From the NCBI GenBank assembly GCA_028695965.1, contig JAQVHZ010000007.1, positions 1 to 64,000 on the forward strand: 64,000 bases of DNA. The letters are read 5' to 3'. Source of the DNA: Thermoguttaceae bacterium. Its GTDB lineage: Bacteria; Planctomycetota; Planctomycetia; Pirellulales; Thermoguttaceae. Position 1 is the stretch's first letter. Every line of letters begins with the position of its first letter. A model generated the notes under the pieces. That model made no database searches. It was given only the letters and a program-made list of their open reading frames with translations, and was not told the origin of the DNA. This document shows positions 2,640 through 8,670 of the stretch, piece after piece. The position numbers and the translations under genes are program-made.

Positions 2640-2657
2640 GAACGGAAAGGTACTTTG

Positions 2658-4181
2658 ATGAGCAACCGCGTTCGTCAAATGCGAGAAGCGCTTGGCGTCA
2701 ACCATGAAGATTTTGCCGCGCAAGTGAATGTGTCTCCGCGATTTCTAGTCGCATTAGAGGAGGACGCCTGCGTAGTCGGCGTCGACGCGGCGATAAGAAT
2801 TGCACGCGCATTAGGGACGACGGTCGAGCAGCTCTTTGGAGACCTGCCGGAGAACGATGCGTTTACTGGAGCGGCGGCAACTGCGGCAGAGCCTGACGTC
2901 AAACCTGTGAACGCCGAGGAACCGGAGCCGTCTGCAGAGCCGAAAAAGCGACGCAAGGCGACTCCGCATAAGAACAAGTCTGCGGCGTCTACATCGCTGG
3001 AAGATCCTGCGGTCGAACCCCCAAAGGTCGCGCCTTACTCGACTGAATTAGAGCAGAAAACGCTTGACGAACTTTTGCTTGAAGAAGACGCTTCTCCACG
3101 CTTGGCGCTTGAAACGGTTGAGTCTGCGGAACCGCGCAGAGTCAACGCGCCTCTGCGCAGTCAGAAAGTTTCGTCGAGTTTTTCGAAGACGGCGCAGACG
3201 GACGGTCTTGCTGATTCGCCCGTGGGGCTGACAGATCCTACGCTTGGACGCCCCATTCGTTATTTCGACCTCTTTTGTGGAATTGGCGGCTTTCATTACG
3301 CCGCGCAAAAGGTCTTCGCGCAGATGAAGCGCACGAGCGAGTGCGTCATTAGCTGCGACGTCGACAAATATGCGCAGCAGAGTTACGCCGCGAATTTTGG
3401 CGCGACGCCTTTTGGAGACGTTTCTCGACTCTCTTCTGAAGATATTCCTGATTTTGATCTTCTCTTTGCAGGTTTTCCGTGTCAAACGTTTTCAATTATC
3501 GGTTTGCGCAAAGGTTTTGCAGACGAAACGAAAGGCTCTCTTTTCTTTCAGATAGCCCGCGTCTTGAAGGACAAGCGGCCGCGCGCGTTTGTCTTGGAAA
3601 ATGTTCGCCAACTTACGACGCACGATTCCGGACGAACCTTTCAGATAATCTTACGCGTTTTGCAGGAGGAACTTGGATACTTCGTTGATTGGCGTATTCT
3701 GAACGCGCTCGAATGCGGTCTTCCTCAGAAGCGCGAGCGCGTTGTCGTCGTCGGTTCGACAGAGCCGTTTGAGATGGAATGGCCCAAACCGATCGAGCCG
3801 ACTCCATTGAGCGACCTCTTGGAGGATGATAAAGACGTCGATCAGAAGTATTTTGCGTCTCCGGAGATTGTTCGCAGGCGGAAAGAAGCGCATCAATCGG
3901 AGTTTTATCCTTCGATTTGGCATGAGAATAAGTCGGGCAATATCTCTTCGTATCCGTACAGCTGCGCATTGCGCGCTGGAGCGAGTTATAATTACTTGCT
4001 CGTTAATGGCGAACGTAGATTGACCCCGCGAGAAATGTTGCGTTTGCAAGGTTTCCCAGACAATTTCAAGATTGTAGTATCCGATACCCAAATTCGTAAG
4101 CAGGCTGGCAACGCCGCGCCTGTCCACCTAATTCAACGCGCGCTTGAGCGGTTTTTGCCGCTGGTCTTTGTGAAGAAATGA
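2658..4181 (+). CDS. DNA (cytosine-5-)-methyltransferase with N-terminal XRE helix-turn-helix
   Basis: Transfers a methyl group from AdoMet to C5 of cytosine in a specific DNA site. Residues about 1-65 form an XRE/Cro-type helix-turn-helix, followed by a low-complexity Glu/Pro/Lys linker to about residue 195. The methyltransferase core then shows motif I (FDLFCGIGGF), motif IV with the catalytic Cys (GFPCQTFS), motif VI (ENVRQL), motif VIII (QKRERVVVVG), motif IX (RLTPREMLRLQGFP) and motif X (QAGNAAP). The ORF track begins at a TTG at 2655; the ATG at 2658 is preferred because GGAAAGG lies 8 nt before it. The stop overlaps vsr by four bases (ATGA). In known enzymes such as M.SsoII and M.EcoRII an N-terminal HTH lets the methyltransferase repress its own operon; that role here is inference. 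No restriction endonuclease is recognisable nearby. Confidence 0.95.
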   Translation: MSNRVRQMREALGVNHEDFAAQVNVSPRFLVALEEDACVVGVDAAIRIARALGTTVEQLFGDLPENDAFTGAAATAAEPDVKPVNAEEPEPSAEPKKRRKATPHKNKSAASTSLEDPAVEPPKVAPYSTELEQKTLDELLLEEDASPRLALETVESAEPRRVNAPLRSQKVSSSFSKTAQTDGLADSPVGLTDPTLGRPIRYFDLFCGIGGFHYAAQKVFAQMKRTSECVISCDVDKYAQQSYAANFGATPFGDVSRLSSEDIPDFDLLFAGFPCQTFSIIGLRKGFADETKGSLFFQIARVLKDKRPRAFVLENVRQLTTHDSGRTFQIILRVLQEELGYFVDWRILNALECGLPQKRERVVVVGSTEPFEMEWPKPIEPTPLSDLLEDDKDVDQKYFASPEIVRRRKEAHQSEFYPSIWHENKSGNISSYPYSCALRAGASYNYLLVNGERRLTPREMLRLQGFPDNFKIVVSDTQIRKQAGNAAPVHLIQRALERFLPLVFVKK

Positions 4182-4732
4182 CGGACGATTCGAAGAAGCG
4201 CGCGGGCGCTGGTAAGAGACGCGCAAGTAAGCGCCCCATTGTCCTGCCGAAGCTCCCGGAACTTCCGCAAGGAGACGATTCGCCAGAAAAATTTGACGTT
4301 TTTGACGCGTCAAAACGTTCGGAGATTATGAGCAAAGTCAGGTCGACGAAGAACAAGTCGACAGAGTTGCGCTTGATACAAGAATTTAAGCGACTAGGAA
4401 TTACGGGCTGGCGCAGGCACGTCAAGATTGTTGGCAAACCTGATTTTCTCTTTCGGAAGCTGCGTATCGCGTTGTTTGTCGACGGATGTTTCTGGCACGG
4501 GCACGACTGCCGCAATACAAAGCCGAAGGATCATGCGGATTATTGGCGCGCCAAGATTGAACGCAACCAGATTCGGGATCGCGCCGTAACGGAACGTCTT
4601 CAAGCGCTAGGGTATCGTGTCATACGCATTTGGGAATGTGATTTTAAAAAGGCGAACGCCGAACGACTGGAAGAAAATTTGCGACCGATTGTTGAAGCGC
4701 TTGAACGTATTCAATCGGAATCGAACTCGTAA
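4178..4732 (+). CDS. vsr: Very short patch repair (Vsr) mismatch endonuclease
   Basis: Vsr nicks beside T:G mismatches that arise when 5-methylcytosine made by a Dcm-type enzyme deaminates, starting short-patch repair. The core carries the family signatures KRSEIMSKVRSTKNKSTE, KPDFLF (the Asp of the metal site) and FVDGCFWHGHDC, then YWRAKIERNQIRDR and VIRIWECDF. At 184 residues it is about 30 longer than the E. coli enzyme (156) because of a Lys/Arg/Pro-rich N-terminal extension of about 40 residues. Its ATG overlaps the methyltransferase stop (ATGA), the usual Dcm-Vsr coupling. A degraded second copy of the last 70 bases of this gene lies at about 5949-6017, upstream of the second CDF gene. 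Confidence 0.95.
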   Translation: MTDDSKKRAGAGKRRASKRPIVLPKLPELPQGDDSPEKFDVFDASKRSEIMSKVRSTKNKSTELRLIQEFKRLGITGWRRHVKIVGKPDFLFRKLRIALFVDGCFWHGHDCRNTKPKDHADYWRAKIERNQIRDRAVTERLQALGYRVIRIWECDFKKANAERLEENLRPIVEALERIQSESNS

Positions 4733-4746
4733 AACTAAACGTTGCT

Positions 4747-5883
4747 ATGGAATTGTTAAAAAAAATTCTGAAACTTGACGACGATCAACGAAAAAACACA
4801 ATCGTTCTTACTTCTACCCTTGGAATCGTCGTCAATCTGCTTATTGCTGTCGCGAAGATTCTTATTGGCGTTTTGGCCTCGTCAATAGCAATCATCTCCG
4901 AAGGCGTCCACAACGTTACTGACGCAATGACTTCGTTTTTATCGCTTATTGGAGTGAAACTTGCCGATAAACGCCCCACCGAAAAACACCCGTTTGGATA
5001 TGGGCGGATTGAATACCTCGCAAGCCTTACGATAGCGGTTCTAATTTTGGTCGCAGGTGTGGAGATGCTGCTCGGCTCCTTCAAATTAATACTGAAGCCT
5101 GCTGAATTGTCGGTTACCTACGGCGCTCTTGTTTTCATTGCTGCGACGGCGGTTGTGAAGTATTGGCTTGGCGTCTATACGATTAGAAAGGGCAAGGACG
5201 TCGATTCCGGCTCTCTCGTCGCCATTGGGCTTGAAGGGCGCAACGACGCGTTTATCTCGGCTGTAACAATCGCGTCTGGACTAGTCTTTTTGGTTCTTCA
5301 TTATTCTGTTGACGCGTATGTTGGCGTTTTTCGGTCCTTTATTGTTATCAAAACCGGCGTTGACGTTTTGCTTGAATCAGTGGGACAATTGCTCGGCCGC
5401 GCCGGCAAAAAGGAGCTTGCGGATCAGCTCTATCGTGAGATTCTCGAAACAGAGGGAATTATTAATGCTGCCGATATGATTTTGCATAATTATGGTCCAA
5501 ACGCTTGGTCGGGTTCCGTTAATGTTGAGGTCGATCATTCGAAGACAGTTGGAGAAGTCTATCTGTTCCTCCACAGCCTGCAATTACGAATCATGCATGA
5601 GCACAATGTTACTATGGTCTTTGGCGTCTACGCGACGGGAATCGATCATAAGGATTACGTTTATCTTCGAGAACTTATTGTGCAATTCGTCCAAGGGCAG
5701 AAGCATATCAAGAATTTCCACGCGCTCTATTTGGATTCCAATACGAATAGAATTTACTGTGATTTTGTCGTTGACTACGATTTAGAGGATTGGGACGCGT
5801 TACGCGAGGAGTTCATTGCCTACATGGCAGGTTTTTATCCCGATAAAGAAGTTTATTTGACAATTGAAACAGAATTTGTTTGA
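4747..5883 (+). CDS. Cation diffusion facilitator family transporter, copy 1
   Basis: Predicted proton-coupled divalent metal exporter of the inner membrane. About six hydrophobic segments occupy residues 18-220, followed by a cytoplasmic C-terminal region of about 155 residues that appears to contain one ferredoxin-like CDF domain plus an extra similar module. Family signatures: SEGVHNVTDAMTS in TM2, the KRPTEKHPFGYGRIEYL loop, and EGRNDAFIS in TM5. The intramembrane metal site would be H55-x3-D59 in TM2 and E163-x3-D167 in TM5, which is neither the Zn (H/D...H/D) nor the Mn (N/D...D) pattern exactly. The gene starts 15 nt after vsr and may be read from the same promoter. It is clearly paralogous to the next gene. 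Confidence 0.92.
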   Translation: MELLKKILKLDDDQRKNTIVLTSTLGIVVNLLIAVAKILIGVLASSIAIISEGVHNVTDAMTSFLSLIGVKLADKRPTEKHPFGYGRIEYLASLTIAVLILVAGVEMLLGSFKLILKPAELSVTYGALVFIAATAVVKYWLGVYTIRKGKDVDSGSLVAIGLEGRNDAFISAVTIASGLVFLVLHYSVDAYVGVFRSFIVIKTGVDVLLESVGQLLGRAGKKELADQLYREILETEGIINAADMILHNYGPNAWSGSVNVEVDHSKTVGEVYLFLHSLQLRIMHEHNVTMVFGVYATGIDHKDYVYLRELIVQFVQGQKHIKNFHALYLDSNTNRIYCDFVVDYDLEDWDALREEFIAYMAGFYPDKEVYLTIETEFV

Positions 5884-5948
5884 CGTTTGTTTTGAATGGC
5901 GTTAAGCGGCGCTCCATGTAAGAAAGGTCAGCAGACTCTCAGACTAAC

Positions 5949-6017
5949 GAACACCCAACAATGAAAAGATATTGCGTCCGGTTACAGAAGCGCTTGAACG
6001 AGACCAAATCGGAATCG
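5949..6017 (+). pseudogene. Decayed remnant of the vsr 3' end, duplicated with the CDF gene
   Basis: This 69-base stretch aligns with the last part of vsr (4654-4723). The blocks GAAGCGCTTGAACG and TCGGAATCG are identical and TTGCG-CCG is nearly so. In both places the match sits the same short distance (23 and 25 nt) before an ATGGAA...TTAAAAAAA start of a CDF gene. It is therefore best read as the left end of a tandem duplication whose breakpoint lay inside vsr. The copy is out of frame and non-functional. Confidence 0.7.
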
Positions 6018-6059
6018 CCCTGATGAATTATTGATCGTTACTATGGAACTATTAAAAAA

Positions 6060-7178
6060 ATGCCTGCGTCTTGGCGACGATCAGCGAAAAATGCGATTGT
6101 TCTTACTTCTTTGCTTGGAATCGTCGTCAATTTGCTCATCGCTGGCGTGAAGATTCTTATTGGCGTTTTGACGTCGTCGATAGCGATCGTATCTGAAGGC
6201 GTCAACAATTTGTCCGACGTCCTGACCTCGTTTTTGTCGCTTGTCGGGGCGAAACTTGCCGAAAAGCGGCCTAATGAAAAGCGCCCGTTCGGGTATGGAC
6301 GGATAGAATATCTCACAAGCCTTACAATTGCAGTTATCATTTTAGTCGCGGGCGTGGAGATGCTGATCGGTTCGGTCAAGTTGATTGTGAATCCCGCCGA
6401 ATTATCCCTTACCTATCTTTCTCTTATTATCATTGGAGCGACGGCGATCGTTAAGTACCAACTTGGCGTCTATACGATCAAAAAGGGCAAGCAAGTCGAT
6501 TCTGGTTCGCTGGTCGCCGTCGGTCTTGATTGCCGCAACGACGCGTTTATCTCAATTGTAACGATCGTTTCCGGATTAATCTTTTTAATTTTTCATTACT
6601 CGATCGACGCGCATATTGGCGTCTTTATGTCCTTTGTCGTTATCAAAGCAGGCGTTGACGTTTTGTGGGATTCGATCAGCGAATTGCTTGGTCGTTCTGG
6701 TAAAAAGGAACTTGCGGATCAGCTTTATCGTGAGATTCTCGAGACGGATGGAATTATTGACGCCGCCGATATGGTTTTGCATAACTACGGACCAAGCGCT
6801 TGGTCGGGGACCGTTAATGTCGAAATCGACCATGCGAAAACAGTTGGAGACGTCTATCTGTTCCTCCATAGTCTGCAGTTACGAATCATGCATGAGCATA
6901 ACGTTACGATGGTCTTCGGCATTCATGCAACCGGAATCGATCATAAAGAATACGTCGAACTTCGAGACGTCGTTCAGGAATTCATTCAGGAACGCGAGCA
7001 TATCAAGACCTTTCACGCGCTCTATTTAGACGCAGAAGCCAATAGAATCTACTGCGATCTGGTCGTCGACTTCGATTTAAAAGAACGGGACGAATTACAC
7101 GACGATTTTATCGCCTATATGACGCGCTTTTATCCGGATAAAGAGGTCTCTTTGAAGATCGAAACGGAATTTGTCTAA
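6060..7178 (+). CDS. Cation diffusion facilitator family transporter, copy 2 (5' frameshift)
   Basis: Paralogue of the preceding gene, similar along its whole length, including the six membrane segments, the KRPNEKRPFGYGRIEYL loop and the long C-terminal domain. Its metal site differs: N49-x3-D53 in TM2 and D157-x3-D161 in TM5, which resembles the Mn-CDF pattern. The original start appears to be the ATG at 6043, which gives MELLKKCLRLGDDQRK, matching copy 1; but a run of five A at 6087-6091 (six in copy 1) breaks that frame. The open frame listed here instead begins with an ATG at 6060 and a different ten-residue N-terminus, MPASWRRSAK, before rejoining the family at NAIVLTS. Either the gene uses the new start, or slippage at the A-tract restores the frame, or the base is a sequencing or assembly error. 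Confidence 0.85.
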   Translation: MPASWRRSAKNAIVLTSLLGIVVNLLIAGVKILIGVLTSSIAIVSEGVNNLSDVLTSFLSLVGAKLAEKRPNEKRPFGYGRIEYLTSLTIAVIILVAGVEMLIGSVKLIVNPAELSLTYLSLIIIGATAIVKYQLGVYTIKKGKQVDSGSLVAVGLDCRNDAFISIVTIVSGLIFLIFHYSIDAHIGVFMSFVVIKAGVDVLWDSISELLGRSGKKELADQLYREILETDGIIDAADMVLHNYGPSAWSGTVNVEIDHAKTVGDVYLFLHSLQLRIMHEHNVTMVFGIHATGIDHKEYVELRDVVQEFIQEREHIKTFHALYLDAEANRIYCDLVVDFDLKERDELHDDFIAYMTRFYPDKEVSLKIETEFV

Positions 7179-7317
7179 AATCTAAATTGAATGGCGCCTA
7201 ATTTGCACAGTGTAGATGAGTCTTTAGTGATCGATCAAACTAATGAGCGCCGTCGTTACGGTAATGACAGCCTTCATCTAAAACCAAACAGTTACGATAA
7301 GAAAGCGAAGCGAATCT

Positions 7318-7515
7318 ATGGCAATCAAATTGAACCCCGACGAAAATGTCGTGAAGAAAGTGAAAGAAGCGCTCGCTCGGACAGGCGGGTATTGTCCGTG
7401 TCGACGGGAACGCACCCCAGAGTACAAGTGTATATGCGAAGAGTTCCGTAATCAGATCAAGGACCCGAACTTTGAGGGCTACTGCCACTGTATGTTGTAT
7501 TACAAGTCGAAATGA
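7318..7515 (+). CDS. Ferredoxin:thioredoxin reductase catalytic-subunit-like protein
   Basis: Small (65 residues) iron-sulfur/disulfide protein. The Cys pattern is that of the ferredoxin:thioredoxin reductase catalytic chain: CPC at residues 26-28, CIC at 38-40, then EEFRN and GYCHCMLYY. In the plant and cyanobacterial enzyme these cysteines hold a [4Fe-4S] cluster next to a redox-active disulfide that reduces thioredoxin. Bacterial and archaeal stand-alone forms are usually short like this one. The stop codon overlaps the frame of the thioredoxin gene, whose ATG comes 20 nt later, so the pair probably forms an enzyme-substrate unit. No ferredoxin is visible nearby. The overlapping 86-aa ORF at 7191 is a shadow. 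Confidence 0.85.
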   Translation: MAIKLNPDENVVKKVKEALARTGGYCPCRRERTPEYKCICEEFRNQIKDPNFEGYCHCMLYYKSK

Positions 7516-7535
7516 CCGACAAGAAGGAGAATGAA

Positions 7536-7844
7536 ATGGAAGTTACAATTACAAGTAAAAATTTTGAACAAGAAGTTAAAAACTCGACGACGCCCGTCCT
7601 GTTGGATTTCTGGGCGTCTTGGTGCCCGCCTTGCCAAATGCTTGGTCCGGTCTTAGCCGAGGTTGCAAAAGAGTATGCTGGAAAAGTTAAAGTCGGCAAG
7701 GTGAACGTCGACGAAGAACGAGACCTTGCTGACAAGTTTGACGTGTCGAGCATTCCGCTGCTTGTCGTAGTCAAGGACGGCAAGGTTGTCAAACAGGCAG
7801 TTGGGTACCACTCAAAAGAGCAGATTAAAGCTCTGATTAGCTGA
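7536..7844 (+). CDS. trxA: Thioredoxin
   Basis: Cytoplasmic dithiol-disulfide oxidoreductase of 102 residues, the usual thioredoxin length. It has the FWASWCPPC active site at about residues 24-32, the cis-proline region SSIPLLVV, and the GYHSKEQI C-terminal helix. The active-site dipeptide is Pro-Pro instead of the usual Gly-Pro, a change that in model proteins raises the redox potential; whether it does so here is inference. The track starts at 7512, where an ATGA overlaps the upstream stop. The ATG at 7536 is preferred because AAGGAG lies six bases before it and the N-terminus then matches the family. A strong terminator follows at 7913. Confidence 0.93.
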   Translation: MEVTITSKNFEQEVKNSTTPVLLDFWASWCPPCQMLGPVLAEVAKEYAGKVKVGKVNVDEERDLADKFDVSSIPLLVVVKDGKVVKQAVGYHSKEQIKALIS

Positions 7845-8008: not shown

Positions 8009-8221
8009 TTACTTCTTGCCCTTTTCTTCCGGAGCTTCCTTGACCTTCTTTTTCTTCTTCAAGACTACCTTGTAGACGCGAATTTTCGGAAGGTTAAAGG
8101 GGGAAGATTCTTCGGTCCAACGATCTTGGGACTGCAATCTTTCAATACGTTCGACTCTCGTCAATACATTACGCGATCGCGAAATGCCTTTTTTGATCTT
8201 TAAACTTTTATCAATGGTCAT
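8009..8221 (-). CDS. PVC-type small basic protein (probably ribosome-associated)
   Basis: A 70-residue, strongly basic protein beginning MTIDKSLKIKKGISRSRNVL and continuing VERIERLQ...RW and SPFNLPKIRV, with a Lys-rich tail. It matches, from memory of the family pattern, the short basic proteins found almost universally in Planctomycetes, Verrucomicrobia and Chlamydiae (described as TIGR04137). The track ORF starts at 8293, but the ATG at 8221 has GGAG nine bases upstream and gives the conserved N-terminus. It is a useful marker of the organism's lineage. Its exact role is unknown; association with ribosomes is suggested in the family description. A promoter about 170 nt upstream (8395-8422) implies a long leader. 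Confidence 0.88.
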   Translation of the reverse strand: MTIDKSLKIKKGISRSRNVLTRVERIERLQSQDRWTEESSPFNLPKIRVYKVVLKKKKKVKEAPEEKGKK

Positions 8222-8670
8222 TGGTACATTCTCCAAACGTTTTACGCGGCTGCTCGATCGCTCGAACTCGACCCGACGTCCAGTTTGCGACAAAACGACG
8301 GACGCAACGCGCCTGTCTTGGCGATCCGCCCGCGAAACATTCCTAACAACGCTTACGCATAGCGCAAGCGCATTATGGAACGCTTAGTCAGACAAGTATA
8401 CAAGGATGTTCCGATTTTACAAGGGGGCGCCGAGTTTTTCTTGAGTTGAATTTTAAAGTTGCCAGCAGACGGAGTCAAAGCTCTCGTTTAGCAGGTTTCG
8501 TTTTCTCTATCTGTTATCTTCTCGTCAAGCCTATTGCTTTTTGGCGCAAGAATCAGTCTTGCGCGCGGCTCAGGAAAAGAGTATTGTCAGGTTGAAGGGT
8601 TAGAGACAACGGCGCTTAGAATCGTCTCGTCTCTGGTGAAAACAGTTTTGATTAGAAGGATCGCTTCGCT
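8222..8670. other. Intergenic region between divergent small genes
   Basis: About 450 bases without a supported gene. It holds the minus-strand promoter at 8395-8422 and a perfect 8-bp hairpin, GCGCAAGA/TCTTGCGC (8544-8551 and 8557-8564), about 110 nt before the plus-strand gene at 8671. The hairpin has no T-run and could be an operator or a leader structure. Confidence 0.5.
8395..8422 (-). promoter_or_regulatory. Sigma-70-type promoter for the small basic protein
   Basis: Read on the minus strand: TTGTAA, a 16-base spacer, then TATACT. The start point would be near 8389, leaving a leader of about 168 nt before the ATG at 8221. Confidence 0.6.

Follow-up and report, generated by a model that had tools for sequence, protein, structure and literature searches.

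The window analysed here, a stretch of 64,000 nucleotides, is part of a draft genome of a Thermoguttaceae bacterium, a planctomycete of the gut, with a size of 3.43 Mb in 153 contigs. Near its left end it harbors a DNA cytosine methyltransferase gene of the dcm type and a mismatch endonuclease gene (vsr), followed by two genes of the cation diffusion facilitator (CDF) family in direct succession. The features of this locus are as follows.

2655..4181, + strand: dcm-type DNA cytosine methyltransferase with N-terminal HTH (Pfam PF00145, E 1.5e-75; HTH_31; TIGR00675)
4178..4732, + strand: vsr, DNA mismatch endonuclease, intact (TIGR00632, 104.6 bits, cut-off 97.85; Pfam Vsr)
4653..4732, + strand: vsr tail of 80 bases, copy-1 source of the putative duplicated unit (alignment with 5948-6017; conserved in one-copy relatives)
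4747..5883, + strand: CDF1, cation efflux transporter with A-site HD-ED (TIGR01297, 170.8 bits, cut-off 82.35; A-site columns; YiiP/ZnT fold)
5884..5947, + strand: 3′ flank of CDF1, probably a decayed copy of 7179-7242, junction at about 5948 (TTGAATGGCG and a weaker match)
5948..6042, + strand: probable duplication footprint, decayed vsr tail and vsr-CDF spacer, copy 2 (shuffles; neutral, codon-position-blind drift)
6043..6090, + strand: presumed old start and N-terminus of CDF2, thrown out of frame by the loss of 1 nt at an A run (alignments with CDF1 and L041)
6060..7178, + strand: CDF2, cation efflux transporter with A-site ND-DD, likely start ATG at 6060 (open frame; TIGR01297, 171.4 bits; A-site)
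7179..7242, + strand: 3′ flank of CDF2, right-hand end of the putative duplicated unit (alignment with the CDF1 flank)
7318..7515, + strand: small protein resembling the ferredoxin-thioredoxin reductase catalytic chain, FTR-like (PF02943, 21.3 bits, just below the cut-off of 22)
7527..7844, + strand: thioredoxin, trx, with a tentative start; the listed frame opens at 7512 (TIGR01068 equivalog, 121.8 bits)

The methyltransferase carries its HTH domain and a long Ala/Pro/Glu-rich linker in the part encoded by 2655-3200. Upstream of it, 111-2639 encodes a protein of 842 aa without any Pfam match. In the corresponding position of two related genomes (G008 and G004) its conservation is only 33-34%, beside genes that are conserved at 65-90%.

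The predicted model of CDF1 shows six transmembrane helices with the A-site residues in TM2 and TM5, and structure comparison matches its fold to YiiP and ZnT (best E 1.7e-13). In residues 238-378 (5458-5880 in the window) the model places two C-terminal alpha-beta units one after the other, where the known structures of CDF pumps contain a single unit.

The two CDF genes have diverged, as had been proposed in a preliminary description of the locus: their identity is 70-87% in 90-nt windows and their A-sites differ. Gene conversion between the copies was considered and rejected, the longest exact run being 22 nt with no homogenised tract. The dN/dS ratio between them is about 0.15, and therefore purifying selection has acted on both copies for most of their history. 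In CDF2 one base has been lost in an A run near 6087, and the old start at 6043 reads 35 codons and then meets a stop. From the open frame, translation probably begins at the ATG at 6060, which would replace the first 16 or so residues; the frame shift leaves the membrane part untouched.

A copy of the vsr tail in front of CDF2

The preliminary description had reported that a segment preceding CDF2 matches the end of vsr. In a local alignment of vsr and its spacer (4178-4746) with the gap between the CDF genes (5884-6043), 4653-4723 pairs with 5948-6017 at a score of 47. None of 5000 dinucleotide-preserving shuffles reached this value (mean 18.8, sd 2.4, maximum 31), and under a second scoring scheme again none of 5000 scored as high, so that the match stands well apart from shuffled sequence. 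Both identical blocks named earlier, GAAGCGCTTGAACG and AATCGGAATCG, are present in the vsr end and in the gap. The spacing of 23-25 nt to the motif ATGGAA was likewise found; measured from where the second block ends, it is 23 nt in copy 1 (ATG at 4747) and 25 nt in copy 2 (ATG at 6043). The motif follows in both copies as described, but that of copy 2 is out of frame with the rest of CDF2. Also, the footprint is real but begins at 5948 instead of 5949, and its homology continues as far as the start codon.

Beyond the tail, the match carries on colinearly across the vsr-CDF spacer and well into the two CDF genes, interrupted by small indels only. An offset of 1295 holds over most of its length and is common to the tail, the CDF genes and the sequence TTGAATGGCG in their 3′ flanks. 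In total, 4653-5901 and 5948-7196 form continuous homology in direct orientation between adjacent copies. A scrap of 70 bases is short, and one might think of chance similarity or of a similar leader recruited independently before each CDF gene; given the two sets of shuffles and the colinear continuation into spacer and gene, the probability of such an origin is negligible.

To the left, homology ends abruptly. The 50 bases before 4653 and before 5948 are 30% identical, which is the chance level and no better than shuffles. In contrast, the vsr stretch just left of 4653 is 78-80% identical to that of the relatives. No vsr homology further left than 4653/5948 was found in the window.

Right end of the unit and the junction

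TTGAATGGCG lies behind both CDF genes on the same diagonal (p about 0.001), and this match ends at 5901 and 7196, respectively. The 64 bases that separate the CDF1 stop from 5948 can be aligned with the CDF2 3′ flank, poorly but close to the expected diagonal. Near the junction a weaker flank match pairs TCAGACTAACGAACACC with TCAAACTAATGAGCGCC (p 0.002-0.009), and flank homology in this region is weak after removal of the vsr-like bases (p 0.02-0.03). These alignments are best read as a CDF flank that extends to about 5948, where it gives way to the vsr tail. At the breakpoints a short homology is seen, GAACGCC in vsr and GAGCGCC behind CDF2, which is not significant alone (p 0.30). Perhaps the joint formed at this shared GARCRCC, which we offer as a suggestion only.

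Gene order in related genomes

Within the genus, vsr is present in 17 of 20 genomes, and a gene of the close CDF subfamily in three, the same three that have the FTR-like gene. Two of these carry a single copy, namely a rumen Thermoguttaceae bacterium and an uncultured Planctomycetales bacterium (G008 and G004). Both show the order dcm-vsr-CDF-FTR-trx-m94, in which the CDF gene begins right where vsr stops. Therefore, the vsr-CDF order predates the duplication, and the earlier proposal that CDF1 adjoined vsr before that event is borne out. Genus members lacking the CDF gene have dcm-vsr-m94 where the site is readable (L072, L073, L080 and others); the small minus-strand gene behind their vsr is that at 8012-8293 of the window, and in two of them p100 and a glycosyltransferase also follow it. 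No CDF, FTR or trx gene lies between vsr and the minus-strand gene in any CDF-less member with a readable site. The presence of CDF, FTR-like and thioredoxin genes at this position (4747-7844 in the window; L040, L041) is confined, within the genus, to three genomes.

Among 119 genomes of the family, only these three carry this CDF and only the window has two of the subfamily; G004 has a further CDF on a different contig, related at 34%. The comparison with relatives that had been proposed yielded the zero-, one- and two-copy states of one site, and no genome of the family was found to have a pair of these CDF genes while lacking vsr. In a tree of vsr and dcm the three CDF-bearing genomes group with G018 at 91/93, their internal order not being resolved. 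Further CDF relatives (50-59%) occur in gut Bacillota and others without FTR or trx alongside, and for this reason the CDF gene was probably acquired. Taken in series, the dcm-vsr, dcm-vsr-CDF-FTR-trx and two-CDF states indicate that a CDF-FTR-trx block would have come to lie beside vsr and that a tandem duplication followed.

Age of the duplication

In gene trees, CDF1 and CDF2 are sisters with support values of 93/93 (DNA) and 89/85 (protein). Rival rootings, in which one copy is sister to the G008/G004 gene, gave AU p-values of 0.084 and 0.055 (DNA) and of 0.098 and 0.10 (protein). In a tree with all 20 homologues the fork between CDF1, CDF2 and the relatives is not resolved. The fourfold-site distance between CDF1 and CDF2 is 0.53 (0.39-0.73) versus 0.93-1.37 to the orthologues; for the flanking dcm, vsr and trx genes, distances between genomes are 0.63-0.97. 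A duplication younger than the split from G008 and G004 is favoured by these comparisons, not proved.

The duplication might instead be older than the G008/G004 split, one copy having been lost in their ancestor, e.g. by recombination between the repeats; this concerns its timing and not the duplication itself. The AU tests do not reject such a history (p 0.05-0.10), but it requires an extra loss, neither G008 nor G004 retains any remnant of a second unit, and the CDF1-CDF2 distance is well below those to the relatives. We regard the older date as unlikely.

Decay of the second vsr tail

With G008 and G004 as outgroups, changes in both copies of the tail could be polarised. At 60 polarised sites the copy-2 tail shows 12 changes and vsr itself three. 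For comparison, at 69 fourfold sites CDF1 has 11 changes and CDF2 ten, with seven more where both changed. Since 12 changes in 60 sites are comparable to these values, the copy-2 tail has evolved like non-coding DNA, at roughly the neutral rate. Over the three codon positions its changes are distributed 6/4/2, those of vsr 0/0/3 (Fisher p 0.02), and it carries several indels. Such codon-blind change fits a piece that stopped coding at once. The proposed decay of the vsr tail after duplication is thereby supported, vsr having altered at third positions only. A short open reading frame in the copy-2 tail was dismissed: it comprises only some 20-30 codons, and there is no vsr-homologous frame with a start of its own upstream.

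These data bear on two other accounts of the second unit. It could be a diverged vsr-CDF allele from a sister lineage that recombined in at the vsr tail, i.e. a xenologue, as the distance of 0.53 is sizeable and the CDF subfamily moves between phyla, with its relatives in gut Bacillota. A tail that had been coding in another lineage for the greater part of that time, however, would be expected to show mainly third-position changes and no indels, contrary to the pattern in copy 2, and we judge this origin very improbable. Alternatively, selection may have kept the tail because CDF2 uses it as promoter, as leader or for translational coupling, since the copy should include the translation start region that the CDF gene needs. 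Against this speak its rate of change, close to that of fourfold sites, and the lack of any + strand promoter-like match within it. Selection on the tail thus seems improbable, if a little less so than a foreign origin, while the spacer alone could still matter for CDF2.

Proposed course of the duplication

Very probably, the arrangement arose by a single tandem duplication in place, comprising the vsr tail, the spacer, the CDF gene and about 60 nt of its 3′ flank. The one duplication of a vsr-tail and CDF unit proposed earlier agrees with the one-copy order of the relatives, the neutral decay of the tail and the shared CDF 3′ flank. In the proposed course, the CDF-FTR-thioredoxin block would first have come to lie beside vsr. 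With CDF already directly behind vsr, a unit of about 1295 bp (vsr end, vsr-CDF spacer, CDF and about 60 nt of flank) would then have been duplicated in tandem. Because the left breakpoint fell inside vsr, the intact vsr would have stayed on the left and CDF2 would have received the tail only. The orphaned tail has decayed as junk. Purifying selection has preserved both CDF genes as metal efflux pumps with six transmembrane helices, and the two have diverged from each other.

The mechanism itself is ordinary and of the textbook kind. Known tandem duplications with a truncated upstream neighbour at the novel joint show the same order, partial gene, colinearity and decay of the unselected piece. 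Our case is unusual only in the occurrence of zero-, one- and two-copy states within one genus, and its documentation is unusually good. The locus holds the whole series of no gene, one gene and two genes, and the vsr scrap is a molecular scar, giving the event its direction and serving as a neutral yardstick.

Metal-binding A-site of CDF1 and CDF2

The A-site change is the more interesting part, compared with the ordinary duplication event. In the alignment the A-site columns correspond to metal-site residues of ZnT8. The quartet ND-DD is found in CDF2, in the G008 and G004 proteins and in 12 of 16 more distant relatives, and ND-ED in the other four; CDF1 alone among the aligned CDFs has HD-ED. 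Hence the first position is N in CDF2 and in all 18 aligned relatives and H in CDF1. The changed residues of CDF1 are 55 and 163 (4909-4911 and 5233-5235 in the window), and each difference needs a single base (AAC/CAC and GAT/GAA).

ND-DD is the quartet of bacterial Mn-type CDFs of clade 1, while HD-ED occurs in clade 8, which covers zinc and other metals (PMC5703985). As these clades differ in metal and one base suffices per difference, a change of the metal transported by CDF1 after the duplication is plausible. Together, an ancestral ND-DD retained in CDF2 and a move to HD-ED in CDF1 would suggest a division of labour between metals. Going further, CDF1 may have switched from ND-DD to HD-ED by two single-base changes and now export a zinc-like metal, with CDF2 exporting a manganese-like one. 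We consider this neofunctionalisation a real but tentative possibility, to which we would give somewhat less than even chances. If true, a metal pump would here have undergone neofunctionalisation in a known direction, and sister species would still supply a control in their one-copy gene, which resembles the ancestor. With this locus one can test directly if a duplicated metal pump changes its metal via the A-site, a question posed in work on CDF selectivity (PMC5703985).

Resemblance to the known groups is partial. CDF2 and the one-copy relatives share the quartet of the Mn-type CDFs, from which the CDF1 model differs by its two C-terminal alpha-beta units. CDF1 has the same quartet as clade 8, but would have reached it from an ND-DD ancestor, its nearest relatives being ND-DD. 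To the MntE equivalog (NF052621) the CDFs of the window are only distantly similar, scoring 60 and 63 bits against a cut-off of 500.
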